Source: Haloarchaeobius salinus
GTDB lineage: Archaea; Halobacteriota; Halobacteria; Halobacteriales; Natrialbaceae
Reading direction: 5' to 3'
DNA length: 64,000 nucleotides
NCBI RefSeq assembly: GCF_024464185.1
Contig: NZ_JANHAU010000001.1
Span: 310,001 to 374,000 of the forward strand
Positions 9,903 through 15,572 of the stretch are shown one piece after another (the stretch's first letter is position 1; the number at the start of each line of letters is the position of its first letter). Under the pieces are notes generated by a model. That model saw nothing but the letters and a program-made list of their open reading frames with translations. It ran no database searches and had not been told where the DNA came from. Both the position numbers and the translations under genes were made by a program.

Positions 9903-10493
9903 TTAGTCGTCGGCGGTTGCGTCGTATCCCTCGGGTACAGCCTCCAGCGGGTCGACGAAGTGCTCTTTGCGGTGGCAGTTGGCACAGAGGACGTCGCATT
10001 TCGCAATCTCTGCTTGGAGTTCGTCCATGCCGTAGCCGTTGGTCACCATCTGGCTGACGTTCATCTCTTTGTCGACGCCGTCGCGGTGATGATAGTCCAG
10101 ACAGGCGGTCTCGGTCTCACCACACCGACGACACCCGGCATCGGCTTTGAGTTCGTTGACCCAGCTTCGGAGCCGGGCTCTCCGGGTGAGCGTCCGGTTG
10201 CGGTTGTGGACGGAGTTGCGGTAGTGCCAGCGTTGGTCGACCGACAGTGACGCCCAGGCGTCGTCGACGTCGGCAGGTAGATCATCCGGCTTGGGTCCGA
10301 CACGAGTTCCCGAAGAGGGGTTGGTTTCGAGTCCTGCGGCTTCTTTGGCGTCGTTCCACCCGCCCATGGTGCGGATGATGGTCGCGGAGGCGGGTCGGAG
10401 GCCGAGATCTTCGTAGGCGGCTTTGGTCGGGGATTCATCGAGGCGTTGCGCAGCCGTTTGGAGGGCTTCGATGCATGCTGATTCGGTCGTCAT
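9903..10493 (-). CDS. HNH endonuclease with HNH-associated repeat (copy 1)
   Basis: A 196-residue protein. Residues 1-50 carry a helical repeat common next to homing-type HNH enzymes (SPTKAAYEDLGLRPASATII and RTMGGWNDAKEAAGL). The C-terminal half has a zinc-bound HNH core: CRRCGE, CLDYHHRDGVDKEMN, and CDVLCANCHRKEH. A basic linker (RNRTLTRRARLRSW) separates them. It is a close relative of the gene at 11901-12455, and both point the same way around a third nuclease. Likely a selfish or defence endonuclease. The ATG at 10493 gives the best match to the sister copy. Confidence 0.87.
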   Translation of the reverse strand: MTTESACIEALQTAAQRLDESPTKAAYEDLGLRPASATIIRTMGGWNDAKEAAGLETNPSSGTRVGPKPDDLPADVDDAWASLSVDQRWHYRNSVHNRNRTLTRRARLRSWVNELKADAGCRRCGETETACLDYHHRDGVDKEMNVSQMVTNGYGMDELQAEIAKCDVLCANCHRKEHFVDPLEAVPEGYDATADD

Positions 10494-10714
10494 CACCCGT
10501 TCGTGACCGGACAAACTGGCTGGCGTATGTCTGTGTAAAGCCGCTGTCCGCTGTCTCTAACGGGACACATACACACTTCGCCCGACCGCACCGGAGCGTG
10601 ACTGGACGCTCGTCGAACTGGAGTTCACACAGATCACGTATCGACAGGAGACCGTAATATCGTGCACCTTGCAGTGCCGAAGCGTCCTAAAGAACCCGCG
10701 TTATGTGCCGACTC
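10494..10714. other. Intergenic region between nuclease genes
   Basis: About 220 bp with no open frame of good codon use. It holds the promoter of the copy-1 HNH gene and the 3' end of the PD-(D/E)XK gene. Nothing else was recognised. Confidence 0.4.
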
Positions 10715-11749
10715 TCAGTACTGATGTTCGAACTCGAGCGCCGAGGAGGCGAAGGAGTACACGCTGACACCGTTCTCGTCACAGAACGAGGAGAGCTCGT
10801 TCGGTTGGTGGTAGAAGTCGGCGTCGACCACGTCTTCGAGCTGATGGTGGAACGCGACGCTGATGTCCTGTTTGTTGTCTTCGTTCGTTTCGACGACGAC
10901 CGCCAGGTCGGGGTCGTCGTAATCCGGTTTGATGACGTAATCGCCGGGAGTGAACGGTTGTTCGGCGTGTTCGAGGTTCGTGTGCTTGTAGGTGTAGAGC
11001 CTGATGTTCTGGTCGTCGCAGTAGGAGGCGAGTTTCGCAGGTGGGATCGTCCGCCAGTCACCGGGGCCGTCGTCGAGCATCTCGGGGAATGCAACGTTGA
11101 CGGCTTCGCCGTCCATCGTCTGTCCGAACGCGGTCGTGTTCTTCTCCGGGGGGAGGACTTCGACGACGACCGCGACGGATGCGTCGTCGTCGCCGGCTTT
11201 GGTGACTCTGTCGCCGGGCGAGAACGGGTTCTCTGGCTTCTGGTTCAGGTGGGCGGTGTTCGGCCCGAGATCGTGCAGCTCGTTCATGGGTCTCGCGGAG
11301 AGGTGTGCGAGCTTCTCGGGCTCCTCGCCTGAGTATTCGTCTTGGGTCGCGACCTTCGATTTCAGGGTCTCGGTTCGCTCCCACCCGAGGAGGATGAGCC
11401 CGTCCTCGTTGTCTCGGTGCCAGACCATGACGACGATGTCGTCGTCCGGGTCGTTCTCGAGCATGTTCGCCGGTCGGAACGCGGAGACGTCCCGCGAGGT
11501 CTTCACGTCGATCTCGTAGCCGAACACCTCGAAGTCGTAGCCCGAGAAGCTCTCGGGGTTGCAGCGACGGAGGGCTTCCTCGTTCTTCCACTCCCACATC
11601 TCGACCGGGAGGTACTCGCGGCAGAACTGCTCGAACGCCAGCTCTCCGAGGTTGCCGATGCGCTTGACGTCGACGTCCTCAGAACCCTGGATGACCGCCT
11701 GGTGGTGTGCGCGCTCCCGGTCTATCTGATCCGATGTGTAGAGATACAC
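10715..11749 (-). CDS. Predicted PD-(D/E)XK nuclease with two C-terminal repeats
   Basis: A 344-residue protein from a GTG at 11749; a TATA box (GATATATC, 11774-11781) sits about 29 bp before it, fitting leaderless expression, though the frame is open to 11836. Residues 30-85 show a PD-(D/E)XK core: NLGELAFEQF (Glu36), SGYDFEV (Asp72), YEIDVKTSR (Asp81, Lys83). The C-terminus has two related ~80-residue units, each starting F(S/T)PGDxVxK and ending in a cysteine-containing helix (SYCDDQNIRLYTY and SFCDENGVSVYSF). No named family was recognised. It lies between two sister HNH genes, which suggests a defence or selfish role. Confidence 0.72.
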   Translation of the reverse strand: MYLYTSDQIDRERAHHQAVIQGSEDVDVKRIGNLGELAFEQFCREYLPVEMWEWKNEEALRRCNPESFSGYDFEVFGYEIDVKTSRDVSAFRPANMLENDPDDDIVVMVWHRDNEDGLILLGWERTETLKSKVATQDEYSGEEPEKLAHLSARPMNELHDLGPNTAHLNQKPENPFSPGDRVTKAGDDDASVAVVVEVLPPEKNTTAFGQTMDGEAVNVAFPEMLDDGPGDWRTIPPAKLASYCDDQNIRLYTYKHTNLEHAEQPFTPGDYVIKPDYDDPDLAVVVETNEDNKQDISVAFHHQLEDVVDADFYHQPNELSSFCDENGVSVYSFASSALEFEHQY

Positions 11750-11900
11750 AGCATGTGTTCCGGCGAAGGGTGGTGATATATCTCTACTGCTGCCATATTC
11801 ATGGCTACTGTCGTTTGGTGAGCTTCGATACACCACTATTCGGCCGCCTCATCGGTTAATGACGGATGAACTAATATGGACGTCCGAACTGGAAGCGGCG

Positions 11901-12455
11901 CTAGGGCTCCACGTAGTGCTCTTTGCGATGGCAGTTGGCACAGAGCACTTCACACCGTTCGATCTCCTCCAGAATTGACTCTCGACTGTAGCCGTACACG
12001 ACCATCTTCGCGATGCCCATCTCTTTCTCGCCGGTGTGGTGGAAGTCGAGGCAGGCCGGGTCGCCTTCGCCACAGCGTAGACACGCACACTCCGTTTGCT
12101 TGTACTCGTGGAGCCAGGACCGCAGTTCTGCGCGGCGTCTGTCTTTCTTCTCGATCTCCTGCTGGCGGTTCTTGTGGTACCATCGCTGGTAGCCCGACAG
12201 CTCCTCCCACGTCACGTCCTCGGGGAGTTCGACGTCGTCTGGTTTGGGTGCGACGTCGGTGCCGCCGAACTGTCCCGGGTAGTACGTCTCCAGCCCGGCC
12301 GCCTCTTTCGCGTCGTTCCACCCGCCCATCGTGCGAATGATGGTGGCCGAGGCGGGACGCAGGCCGAGTTCCTCGTACGCCGCTTTGGTCGGAGATTCAC
12401 CAAGCTCGACAGCAGCGTCACGCAGTGCGTCGATGCACTCTTTTTCGGTCGTCAT
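11901..12455 (-). CDS. HNH endonuclease with HNH-associated repeat (copy 2)
   Basis: A 184-residue sister of the gene at 9903-10493. The N-terminal repeat is nearly identical (SPTKAAYEELGLRPASATII, RTMGGWNDAKEAAGLE), the middle is more divergent, and the C-terminus has the same zinc-bound HNH core (CLRCGEGDPACLDFHH, CEVLCANCHRKEHYVEP). The high identity over the N-terminal repeat against a diverged middle implies duplication with separate specificity. Acts on DNA in the cytoplasm; target unknown. Confidence 0.87.
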   Translation of the reverse strand: MTTEKECIDALRDAAVELGESPTKAAYEELGLRPASATIIRTMGGWNDAKEAAGLETYYPGQFGGTDVAPKPDDVELPEDVTWEELSGYQRWYHKNRQQEIEKKDRRRAELRSWLHEYKQTECACLRCGEGDPACLDFHHTGEKEMGIAKMVVYGYSRESILEEIERCEVLCANCHRKEHYVEP

Positions 12456-12622
12456 CAGTCGGTCGTGCAGACGAATAAACGGGCTGCTGGTGCGCTCGGG
12501 AATCGAGCGGGCAGGACGTGTGTGATGCGACCGTACTAGAACTATTGAGATCCTCTCAGACCGAGACGCTCACCGCTGAAACGACGGTTCGGTGTAGATG
12601 CGTATCGGTCATAGAGGGCTCA

Positions 12623-13426
12623 TCAGAGAAACGCGTTGCCGCGCTCGTAGAACAGGCGTCGCTCCTCTGGGCCCGGAAGCCCGTGGTAGTCTGCCGGGGT
12701 CGTCTCGTTGAGCCGCTCGGCTGGCAATTCTGGATAGGCGGCAAGCAACTCGACAACGAGCGAGGCGCCCACCTTGGCGAGTTTGCGGTATACCGTATCG
12801 ACGGTGTCGGCGTTGTCGAGGGGGAACGCCCGTTGGGCGAGAATCGGGCCTGCGTCGAAGCGCTCGGTCATCCGATGTGCTGTGACACCCGTTCGGTCGT
12901 CGCCGTAGAACAGCGGCCAGAAGGCGGTCGCCCGGCCGCGGTACTTCGGCAGTAGTGACCCGTGAAGGTTCACCGCGTCGTTGGCGCTCTCCAGGACCGG
13001 CCCGGGAAGTCGCTGGCCCGCCACGATCGAGAGCAGAAGGTCCGGTGCGAGGTCTTCCATACGCTCGACGAACGTCGGGTCACTCACGTCGGGGATGCGC
13101 TCGACGGGGACGCCATGGGCTCTCGCGACCGCCGGAACCGAGTGATACCGGCCGGTGACGCGCCGGGCGACCTGCCCGGGCAACGCGTCAAGCCCTCGAC
13201 TCCGTCCGTAGCGGAGCGCCATCCGGATACCCGCGCGGGCACCGTACATGCCTGCCTGCGAGCGTAGTTGCTCAGCCGGGGGTGCGTCGAAGGGGACGAT
13301 GAACACCTGGTTGATAGTGTCTGCGTGACCCTCGAAGATCGGCTGGAGGTATCGGGGGAGATAGAGCGGTTCCGCACTCGTACACAGGACGACGCGCACA
13401 ACCGAGGGGGAGAACCTGAGGCGCAT
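12623..13426 (-). CDS. Formyltransferase (methionyl-tRNA/sugar formyltransferase fold)
   Basis: A 267-residue enzyme of the N10-formyltetrahydrofolate transferase fold. The catalytic Asn-His-Asp set is seen in VNLHGSLLPKYRGRATA and FDAGPILAQ, with the SLLP signature. It is shorter than methionyl-tRNA formyltransferase and archaea do not formylate initiator tRNA, so a sugar-nucleotide or small-molecule substrate is more likely; glycan modification would fit the glycosyltransferase nearby. The ATG at 13426 lies five bases from the target duplication of the mobile element, so its original upstream region has been displaced. Confidence 0.82.
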   Translation of the reverse strand: MRLRFSPSVVRVVLCTSAEPLYLPRYLQPIFEGHADTINQVFIVPFDAPPAEQLRSQAGMYGARAGIRMALRYGRSRGLDALPGQVARRVTGRYHSVPAVARAHGVPVERIPDVSDPTFVERMEDLAPDLLLSIVAGQRLPGPVLESANDAVNLHGSLLPKYRGRATAFWPLFYGDDRTGVTAHRMTERFDAGPILAQRAFPLDNADTVDTVYRKLAKVGASLVVELLAAYPELPAERLNETTPADYHGLPGPEERRLFYERGNAFL

Positions 13427-13430
13427 ATAT

Positions 13431-13438
13431 CTTCTGCC
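13431..13438. repeat. Target-site duplication, left copy
   Basis: CTTCTGCC directly before the left inverted end of the mobile element. The same eight bases follow the right end at 14493-14500. Confidence 0.85.
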
Positions 13439-14492
13439 GGCTCTGTTGAAATCCTCAGACCTTGATAGGAATGTCGTGCTGAATACAGGGAGCATAGTCA
13501 GCACGCACCCCGAGTGATCGGAGAACAGGAGTGATAGCTCAGTGCAGACTATCTACCGAGCAAGTGCCTTGGACTTCTCTGGCGGTCAATTGGGGGGAAA
13601 GGACTACGCAATACAGGGGATGACTGTGGTATCGTCGTGTCACTCCTTGCTGTGTTCCTCTGACCAGTAATATATCAGGGGTGTTCCCACGATTGTCGGC
13701 CATAACCACGCCAGAATACCCAACACGGGAGTGAGATTGACTGCGGACACAGCACTGATCGTCGCAATAAACGCAGCAATCATCCGTTGAAGATGACTAA
13801 CTAGCCACTCACCGGACGTCTCTCCCTTGAAGGCTCGAATATCAATCGTTCCGAATGTTACTCCAATTCCGCCGAAGACGAGCATCACGAGCCCGAATGA
13901 GTTACCGGTGACGACCCAAACAATCCCCCAGACTCCCAATCCGAGACACGCCAAAACCACGCTCCCGGTTGCGATCCAATCCAGACGCTGAGGGGTGGCA
14001 GCCGGTCGCTTCCGGGAAAGCACGCGATATCCGGAGAACGCAAGATACCCACTGAAGACGGCGACCAACGTGAGAATGATCCGAAATGAGGTCGGATTGA
14101 GAGCGAGGAGCACGAACACCGTCCCAACGACGACGCCCATTGAGACGAGGAAGAGTTTGCCAGCTTGTCGGTGTCGGTGTCCACCTTTCTTCGTCACGAG
14201 CGCACCTGTCCCGGCGAGCACGGCCACCATGCCTGCAGCGATATGCACCCACAGTGACCACGCCTCGATGGTTGGCATATCCCCTCTTGATATGTAGCCA
14301 TAATAAACATTCCCTGTTCTCGGAAGGTCTTACGTTCCAACTCTCAATTTCCCCGTGCAAAATTCGCACTCCTACGGAACAGGAGTTCCAGCTCGTCGTC
14401 TATGAATAGAACCTGTTCATAGTACTGAAGGCAGCCTCTGTATTCAGCACGGCCTCAGCAAACTATCCGCGACTGGGGAATTCAACAGAGCC
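13439..14492. mobile_element. 1,054-bp transposase-less element with inverted ends (IS6-like)
   Basis: The left end (13439-13488) and right end (14438-14492, reverse complement) both begin GGCTCTGTTGAA and share an inner block GTGCTGAATACAG, with more scattered identity between. The element is flanked by an 8-bp direct repeat, CTTCTGCC. The end sequence and 8-bp duplication agree with the IS6 family. Inside there is no transposase; the only gene is a membrane protein (13640-14278). It is thus a complete non-autonomous element with a passenger gene, inserted between the formyltransferase and the divergent gene at 14544. Confidence 0.85.
13640..14278 (-). CDS. DUF2306-like multi-helix membrane protein, passenger of the element
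   Basis: A 212-residue protein with about seven hydrophobic helices. It begins SLWVHIAAGMVAVLAGTGAL followed by TKKGGHRHRQAGKLF, with histidines placed as in DUF2306/cytochrome b561-like proteins, and later contains FGTIDIRAFKGE and LQRMIAAFIATISAV. Function is unknown; a heme or ion-binding membrane role is possible. It lies wholly between the inverted ends of the mobile element, so it moves with it. Codon use is less GC-biased than in the core genes. Confidence 0.8.
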   Translation of the reverse strand: MPTIEAWSLWVHIAAGMVAVLAGTGALVTKKGGHRHRQAGKLFLVSMGVVVGTVFVLLALNPTSFRIILTLVAVFSGYLAFSGYRVLSRKRPAATPQRLDWIATGSVVLACLGLGVWGIVWVVTGNSFGLVMLVFGGIGVTFGTIDIRAFKGETSGEWLVSHLQRMIAAFIATISAVSAVNLTPVLGILAWLWPTIVGTPLIYYWSEEHSKE

Positions 14493-14500
14493 CTTCTGCC
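14493..14500. repeat. Target-site duplication, right copy
   Basis: CTTCTGCC directly after the right inverted end; identical to 13431-13438. Confidence 0.85.
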
Positions 14501-14543
14501 CGGTCGACACAAAGCCTATTCCATCCTCTGTTGATGCGCAACC

Positions 14544-15149
14544 ATGTCCCCACCCTCCAAGGGCAACGCCCTCCGCGCGGTGTTCGGAGACGTCTGTCGG
14601 GCTACCGGTGTCCTCCTCGCCGGTGGCCTCGCCATCGCTGTGCTATCGCTATGGCACCGGGCCATCTCGTCGATCCAGGCAGCTAGACAGAGACCCGGAG
14701 TTGAAGAGCACGACAACCCCACACTCGTCGAGTACGAATTGGACTGGTACCGATACATCAAGGCCTTCGACGCCCACCATGGCCCCGGCGGGGGACCCGA
14801 TCGAGCTATCGCTTCAGGGGCGTTCGTCCGCGGGCTACGCGTGTGGCTGGAAACGCGTTGTCTCCGGGGCTACACGCTCGAAAACGAGGTGTACGTGTGC
14901 CCGGGGGCGCCGCGGGTGCTGCGCGTCCACCAGGCAGGTCACGCGCCCGCGTTCGGGAAGGAGTGTGAGACGCTGGTCCAGCCACGCCGCGAGAACGGCG
15001 GTCTCGACGACGAACCGCTCTCCACTCTCGACGTGATGCTTCCAGGCGACTTCCCACACACATTGCTCCGTCTGCGCGACTCACGCGGACTCACGGACCG
15101 ATACGAGACGTGGCTACGAGACGGCAAGATCGGGCGAGTTCGAGCCTGA
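14544..15149 (+). CDS. Hypothetical protein with N-terminal membrane anchor
   Basis: A 201-residue protein. Residues 15-40 form one hydrophobic helix (ATGVLLAGGLAIAVLSLW). The rest is soluble and mixed, with YELDWYRYIKAFDAHHG and GYTLENEVYVCPGAPRVLRV. No family was recognised. It was probably divergent from the formyltransferase before the mobile element inserted between them. Confidence 0.6.
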   Translation: MSPPSKGNALRAVFGDVCRATGVLLAGGLAIAVLSLWHRAISSIQAARQRPGVEEHDNPTLVEYELDWYRYIKAFDAHHGPGGGPDRAIASGAFVRGLRVWLETRCLRGYTLENEVYVCPGAPRVLRVHQAGHAPAFGKECETLVQPRRENGGLDDEPLSTLDVMLPGDFPHTLLRLRDSRGLTDRYETWLRDGKIGRVRA

Positions 15150-15212
15150 GGGCAATTGCGGTCGTCACCTCTCTACCGAACTGGCTCTCGAAATTTTGCG
15201 CGGCGATTCTGA

Positions 15213-15572
15213 TTAGCTGGAGCGCGGACTAATCGGAGAAGTGGGTTCGTCTTTCTGCCCGCCGACTACAATGAGCAGAACCGCGATACCAACGATGAAG
15301 TACACTACTAAATCGTTCTGAATGCCCTGTTGAGTGATGGTCTGGATACCAAATACAGTAGCCATCACTCCGAATCCAGTAGCTGTCCAGCGAGCCTTGT
15401 ATGCAAGTCCGACAACGGTTCCCCACGTAAGGAACGTCGTCGTAGTCGCGCCAACGACTGTTGAACCCGGGACACCAGCTACCGCTGACGGGGAGAAGAT
15501 TTGAAGAATAGCAAGAACCCCGATAGCAGGGAACCCGACGGCAGCGAGTGGACGATACAGCGCAGATGTCAT
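15213..15572 (-). CDS. Hypothetical membrane protein, four helices
   Basis: A 119-residue protein from ATG 15572 with about four transmembrane helices (AAVGFPAIGVLAILQIF, TTTFLTWGTVVGLAY, ATGFGVMATVFGIQTI, YFIVGIAVLLIVVGG) and a short charged tail. No family was recognised. Part of a run of orphan membrane genes in the lower-GC island. Confidence 0.65.
   Translation of the reverse strand: MTSALYRPLAAVGFPAIGVLAILQIFSPSAVAGVPGSTVVGATTTTFLTWGTVVGLAYKARWTATGFGVMATVFGIQTITQQGIQNDLVVYFIVGIAVLLIVVGGQKDEPTSPISPRSS

Follow-up and report, generated by a model that had tools for sequence, protein, structure and literature searches.

The window, by which we mean the whole 64,000-nucleotide stretch of the Haloarchaeobius salinus genome analysed here, contains a complete insertion of 1,054 bp (13439-14492) flanked on both sides by an exact 8-bp duplication, CTTCTGCC. 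Judged from the sequences of its ends and of related elements, it is very probably a non-autonomous cassette that is moved in trans by an IS5-family transposase of the ISHla2/ISHxa2 type. It is one member of a widespread class of haloarchaeal cassettes that apparently depend on such an IS5-type transposase, a variant of the mobile insertion cassette that has apparently not been described before.

The features of the insertion and its surroundings are listed in Table 1. Its tips, GGCTCTGTTGAA at 13439-13450 (plus strand) and 14481-14492 (minus strand), are the only matches to this sequence in the 64 kb with at most one mismatch; 0.12 matches are expected by chance, and none of 100 shuffled sequences reached two. 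The inverted repeat of the element is 30 bp long with 80% complementarity. Further inwards, both ends hold the subterminal motif CGTGCTGAATACAG (13475-13488, plus strand; 14438-14451, minus strand) with 100% complementarity, and the inverted ends with shared inner sequence described in the original prediction are thereby upheld. In the left end, the terminal repeat GGCTCTGTTGAAATCCTCAG and TTGATAG precede the subterminal motif, which has an imperfect palindrome to TCAGCACG. In the right end, the terminal repeat is followed by GGATAG and then by GAGGCCGTGCTGAATACAGAG, which includes the motif at 14438-14451. The interior holds a single intact open reading frame of 212 aa and no transposase (tblastn, both transposase types), as had been predicted. 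The label DUF2306-like stands less firmly: the Pfam match of the window protein is weak (21.3 bits against a cut-off of 31.6), and it is a homologue in a related cassette that passes (35.8 bits). The element is present in a single copy in its own genome and lies just upstream of the start of the formyltransferase-domain gene, the start codon of which is uncertain (ATG at 13426 or GTG at 13399). Two mutually related minus-strand ORFs near the element (9903-10514 and 11901-12455) look like paralogous HNH genes; the second matches Pfam HNH_repeat, which is associated with homing endonucleases.

Table 1. Coordinates of the inserted element, its parts and the adjacent genes in the window.
Feature	Position	Strand	Remark
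Formyltransferase-domain gene	12623..13426	-	Pfam PF00551, E 8e-23
Target duplication, left copy CTTCTGCC	13431..13438		1 copy in G353 empty site
Left end, type beta	13439..13505	+	typed against 28 beta ends
Passenger, 212-aa multi-pass membrane protein, DUF2306-like	13640..14278	-	
Right end, type alpha	14426..14492	-	typed against 33 alpha ends
Target duplication, right copy CTTCTGCC	14493..14500		
Divergent neighbour gene, 201 aa	14544..15149	+	no Pfam match

An empty site is found in a congener (G353). Its contig C3 aligns to 11000-13438 and to 14493-15213 of the window with an overlap of 8 bp, which is one copy of CTTCTGCC; the left 2.4 kb (91% identical) and the right 0.7 kb (96%) are joined at this copy. 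The rejoined site lies between the divergent formyltransferase-domain and 201-aa genes and is uninterrupted in the congener, as was foreseen when the flanks were rejoined on paper together with an empty site holding a single CTTCTGCC. Paired ends, duplication and precise empty site together bear out the earlier view of a complete transposable unit. The window element is a true insertion made after the lineages of the host and G353 split; the alternative, a precise loss from G353, is less likely.

The passenger gene occurs elsewhere. In a member of another family (G070), the DUF2306 core (13539-14382) recurs with 95% identity; the site there is unrelated, the ends are decayed, the duplication is 7/8, and the two end types lie on the opposite sides relative to the gene. 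Copies without recognisable ends are present in G107 (93%) and Halobellus rufus (89%). Against the copies in these three genomes, the dN/dS of the passenger is 0.18-0.20; it is therefore maintained as a protein, under purifying selection. Around more distant DUF2306 homologues no convincing pair of ends is found apart from two loci: Halosegnis rubeus has a truncated copy with a single end (L003), and Halobaculum litoreum has a complete alpha/beta cassette (L084).

The window element is one of many. In total, 34 transposase-free elements of 125 bp to 6.6 kb are recovered with ends matched in inverted pairs and with unrelated passengers, in line with the earlier expectation that the same ends would enclose other genes. 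The first elements were paired by their ends alone, the duplication not being used, and they mostly turn out to have 7/8 or 8/8 duplications. A census was then made from 40 seed ends, for each of which a mate with a matching duplication was sought within 10 kb; it yields 14 elements (included in the 34) verified by target duplication, all 14 without a transposase. No trace of the IS5-type transposase is detected by tblastn in the 34 end-paired elements, and in the same search every element of a comparison set chosen for its transposase gives a match. Among the genes carried are those for MMPL transporters, an FAD oxidoreductase, BrkB-family membrane proteins, a ParE-like toxin, LtrA, regulators of the FilR1 and HTH_10 types, the DUF2306-like protein of the window, and a histidine kinase together with a metallo-beta-lactamase-fold protein. 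Sensor kinases and small membrane proteins also figure among the cargo. PADLOC assigns none of the passengers tested to a defence system and gives weak matches only. The alpha end matches 102 of 72,556 plasmid records, all genera among the matches listed being haloarchaeal, and a scan of phage records finds no alpha end. One cassette (L081 4366-5135, G379) carries a ribbon-helix-helix-like and ParE-like pair, a candidate toxin-antitoxin cargo. A 125-bp unit of Natrialba magadii (L175, G071) with GGCTCTGTTGAAACCCT ends, the duplication AATTCAAC and other inner sequence is a true MITE; a similar 125-bp unit lies inside locus L179 (G027).

The host genome itself contains a second transposase-free element at C2:5286-5871 (L023; 586 bp, 8/8 duplication AGTTGACC), the joined flanks of which are contiguous in two congeners (G279 and G261). 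It carries an Amphi-Trp gene (Pfam E 1e-35), and neither end can be assigned clearly to alpha or beta. Two single perfect ends are also present. One (C2:1011259, L024 3260 onward) stands by ABC-2-type transporter genes with no mate in the stretch read, and it possibly belongs to a larger or truncated cassette. The other (C8:21626, L025 3127-3138) stands beside an ORF of about 200 aa with hydrophobic segments, its mate being missing or decayed. These single ends suggest older copies.

The ends of the non-autonomous elements fall into two types of about 65 bp, with the consensus sequences GGCTCTGTTGAAATCCTCAGTCGCTGATAGTTTGTTGAGGCCGTGCTGAATACAGAGCGCG (alpha) and GGCTCTGTTGAAATCCTCAGAACTTGACAGAAATCGCGTGCTGAATACAGAGGGTGTATTCAGCAC (beta). 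One alpha and one beta end are present in 26 of 27 confidently typed elements; the census elements alone, none of which contributed to the reference ends, give 11 of 12. No rule is found for the orientation of the passenger relative to alpha or beta.

It is the elements with matching ends that do encode a transposase which point to the driver. The exact 13-bp end is present in all 12 genomes searched (reversed control, 0). A transposase of the IS5 family (NCBIfam NF033579, E 4e-66), which also matches DDE_Tnp_1, is encoded by intact elements that have GGCTCTGTTGAAATCCTYAG ends and 8-bp duplications, and NCBI names the plasmid transposases that are 84-86% identical to the query as ISHla2 and ISHxa2 family. 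These autonomous relatives span 1,266-2,490 bp, encode a transposase of 273 or 285 aa and have 8-bp duplications. Ten of them (L189, L191, L195, L196, L271, L273, L274, L278, L282 and L283) combine 8/8 duplications, the same terminal 20 bp and an IS5-family transposase, and a copy annotated as ISHxa2 (L290) has the duplication CACCGTCT. On the transposase side they have a third type of end, T (GGCTCTGTTGAAATCCTTAG, with a further 32 bp to the transposase start codon, which lies 52 bp from the end of the element). Nearly every one has a different passenger beside the transposase, such as DUF4870, a polyketide-cyclase-like protein, a methyltransferase, an archaeal pilin, a redoxin, DUF7344, or lipoprotein-like and small membrane proteins, although some of the small ORFs may not be genes. 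Natrialba magadii has two 1,471-bp units between such ends, each encoding a 273-aa IS5-family transposase. ISH6, considered for its length of about 1,450 bp and its 8-bp duplication, is rejected, since these units encode the IS5-family transposase instead. In the same genome (G071), two inverted IS copies (L169 and L170; C1:805523-806993 and 1209444-1210914) have 8-bp flanks swapped as reverse complements (TATCGAAT/GGTTATAA against ATTCGATA/TTATAACC), which is the signature of an inversion of about 400 kb by recombination between the two copies.

Positions 1-20 and 25-30 are conserved across T, alpha and beta ends, and it is by this shared outer sequence that the cassettes are tied to the IS5-type transposase. 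Alpha-type ends close the autonomous elements L083/L259 and L189 on the passenger side. The end pairs found in autonomous elements are T with P or T with alpha; among those found, none has a beta end or the combination of alpha and beta. The cognate transposase is therefore identified only through the outer 30 bp or so. No intact close relative of the transposase is found in the host genome, in which the best match is 41% identical and has a stop; an intact copy, 84% identical to the query, is present in a congener (G270). The driver copy may be absent from the 17-contig assembly, or it may have been lost from the host.

Based on these comparisons, mobilisation of the window element would proceed as follows. 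The left (beta) and right (alpha) ends would carry the recognition sequence of the IS5-type transposase, namely GGCTCTGTTGAAATCCTYAG, four variable bases and TKAYAG. A transposase supplied by an autonomous element elsewhere would bind both ends, move the whole 1,054-bp unit with the DUF2306-like gene, and duplicate 8 bp of the target. Recombination at CGTGCTGAATACAG, which is present in both ends, probably allows passengers to be inverted or exchanged; this is the least certain step. We infer both that the transposase acts in trans and that one end of each type is required.

An alternative is that a complete passenger-carrying IS5-type transposon, a tIS, was inserted and that an internal deletion then removed its transposase at the site. 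Autonomous relatives carry passengers beside the transposase, so such a deletion could leave a passenger-only element. The Amphi-Trp passenger of C2:5286-5871 is in fact 91.6% identical in amino acids to that of the transposase-bearing L185 (G322), the transposase of which is itself truncated. However, the left end of the window element is of type beta, whereas it is a T end that lies in front of the transposase in the autonomous elements, and no remnant of a transposase can be detected. Alpha/beta ends with 8-bp duplications enclose dozens of unrelated passengers across many genera, and these therefore moved as transposase-free units. Loss in place is accordingly judged improbable for the window element.

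Still less probable, and already largely refuted, is mobilisation by an IS6-family transposase, the assignment made in the original prediction. The 8-bp duplication and GG-CTGTT tips are common to IS6 elements (PMC7986276), and IS6 transposases are common in haloarchaea; the duplication of the window element agrees with that family, yet it is not specific to IS6. Against this reading, the haloarchaeal IS6 loci with readable ends have GGCACTGTCTAGTT- or GGYRGTGTTCAGATAAG-like termini, so the full IS6 element with matching ends that was anticipated does not appear among them. The host genome has no match to the IS6 transposase (PF13610), and the elements that do have matching ends carry the IS5-family transposase. 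At L133, a GGCTCTGTT end is interrupted exactly within its sequence by an IS6 element that has GGCACTGTC ends and the duplication AACAGAGC; the cassette ends are therefore themselves targets. A transposase of the IS1595 type, a group that makes 8-bp duplications and is known for passengers, was also considered as the driver; the 30 loci inspected have no matching paired ends. That two unrelated old IS ends flank the gene by chance, for which nothing speaks except that IS remnants are generally abundant in haloarchaea, is refuted by the precise empty site in G353 and is opposed by the exact duplication and by the related copy with this passenger that stands at a different locus in another family (L065 of G070).

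Some passengers occur in different arrangements relative to the ends. Besides the DUF2306 gene (window against G070), there are two further cases. L071 and L227 share a BrkB-type passenger with 95% identity over 1.4 kb, and their shared end region is identical inwards of a CGTGC motif and different outwards; because the end of L227 is weakly typed, the alignment is the main evidence here. In L023 and L185, the Amphi-Trp passenger has opposite orientations relative to the end type that the two elements share. The crossover appears to lie at the subterminal CGTGCTGAATACAG motif common to both ends. The three cases fit either recombination at this motif or repeated capture. They are cited for a more tentative proposal, which we regard as possible and rather doubtful, that the cassettes are two-layered, the outer 35 bp or so serving IS5-type transposition and the inner inverted CGTGCTGAATACAG serving as a border for inversion or swapping of passengers. 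If true, it would mean that haloarchaea have an integron-like gene-shuffling system built on transposon ends.

In bacteria, passenger-bearing and transposase-free elements are named tIS and MIC, respectively. Like MICs, which have inverted ends, a target duplication, passenger gene(s), no transposase and a presumed mobilisation in trans, the window element combines paired ends and duplication with a passenger and lacks a transposase. The MICs in the literature found are bacterial, whereas the cassettes described here are haloarchaeal, have an IS5-family transposase as their apparent driver, and possess two different conserved end types of about 65 bp with a shared subterminal motif. The tIS, with a transposase and a variable passenger, describes the autonomous relatives such as L189 and L191 but not the window element. 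With ISHla2/ISHxa2-type IS5 elements it shares the outer 30 bp or so of the terminal repeat and the 8-bp duplication, as a non-autonomous relative should; it is not a full member, having no transposase and a beta end that differs from the transposase-side end. Duplications of 8 bp are also made by ISH1 and ISH6 of Halobacterium (PMC10264941). Haloarchaeal MITEs such as ISH2, a 520-531-bp MITE with a short ORF that is moved by the ISH8 transposase (PMC3119063, PMC10264941), lack a transposase and are mobilised in trans, as proposed for the cassettes. However, MITEs are short, mostly non-coding and of one sequence per family, whereas the cassettes hold many unrelated full-length genes in up to 6.6 kb, and the window element has 1,054 bp and a 212-codon gene under purifying selection. 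Single cases of passengers are on record: a review of IS6 mentions one passenger-bearing member (PMC7986276), and one transposon passenger gene is noted in Halorubrum lacusprofundi (PMC10544981). A description of the alpha/beta class is not found in the open literature searched (subscription papers and ISfinder lie outside this scope). The earlier remark that such elements are rarely described is thus right for the literature searched, but the elements themselves are common.

Haloarchaea are known for heavy gene exchange, and the vehicles that carry single genes are poorly known. The cassettes are a concrete and countable vehicle for such single-gene exchange. With their ends, genes that have moved recently can be located directly, and it can be tested how cargo is spread by a transposase that has no resident copies. 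The asymmetry of alpha and beta, together with passenger inversion, leads to testable questions on how the ends are recognised and how passengers are exchanged.
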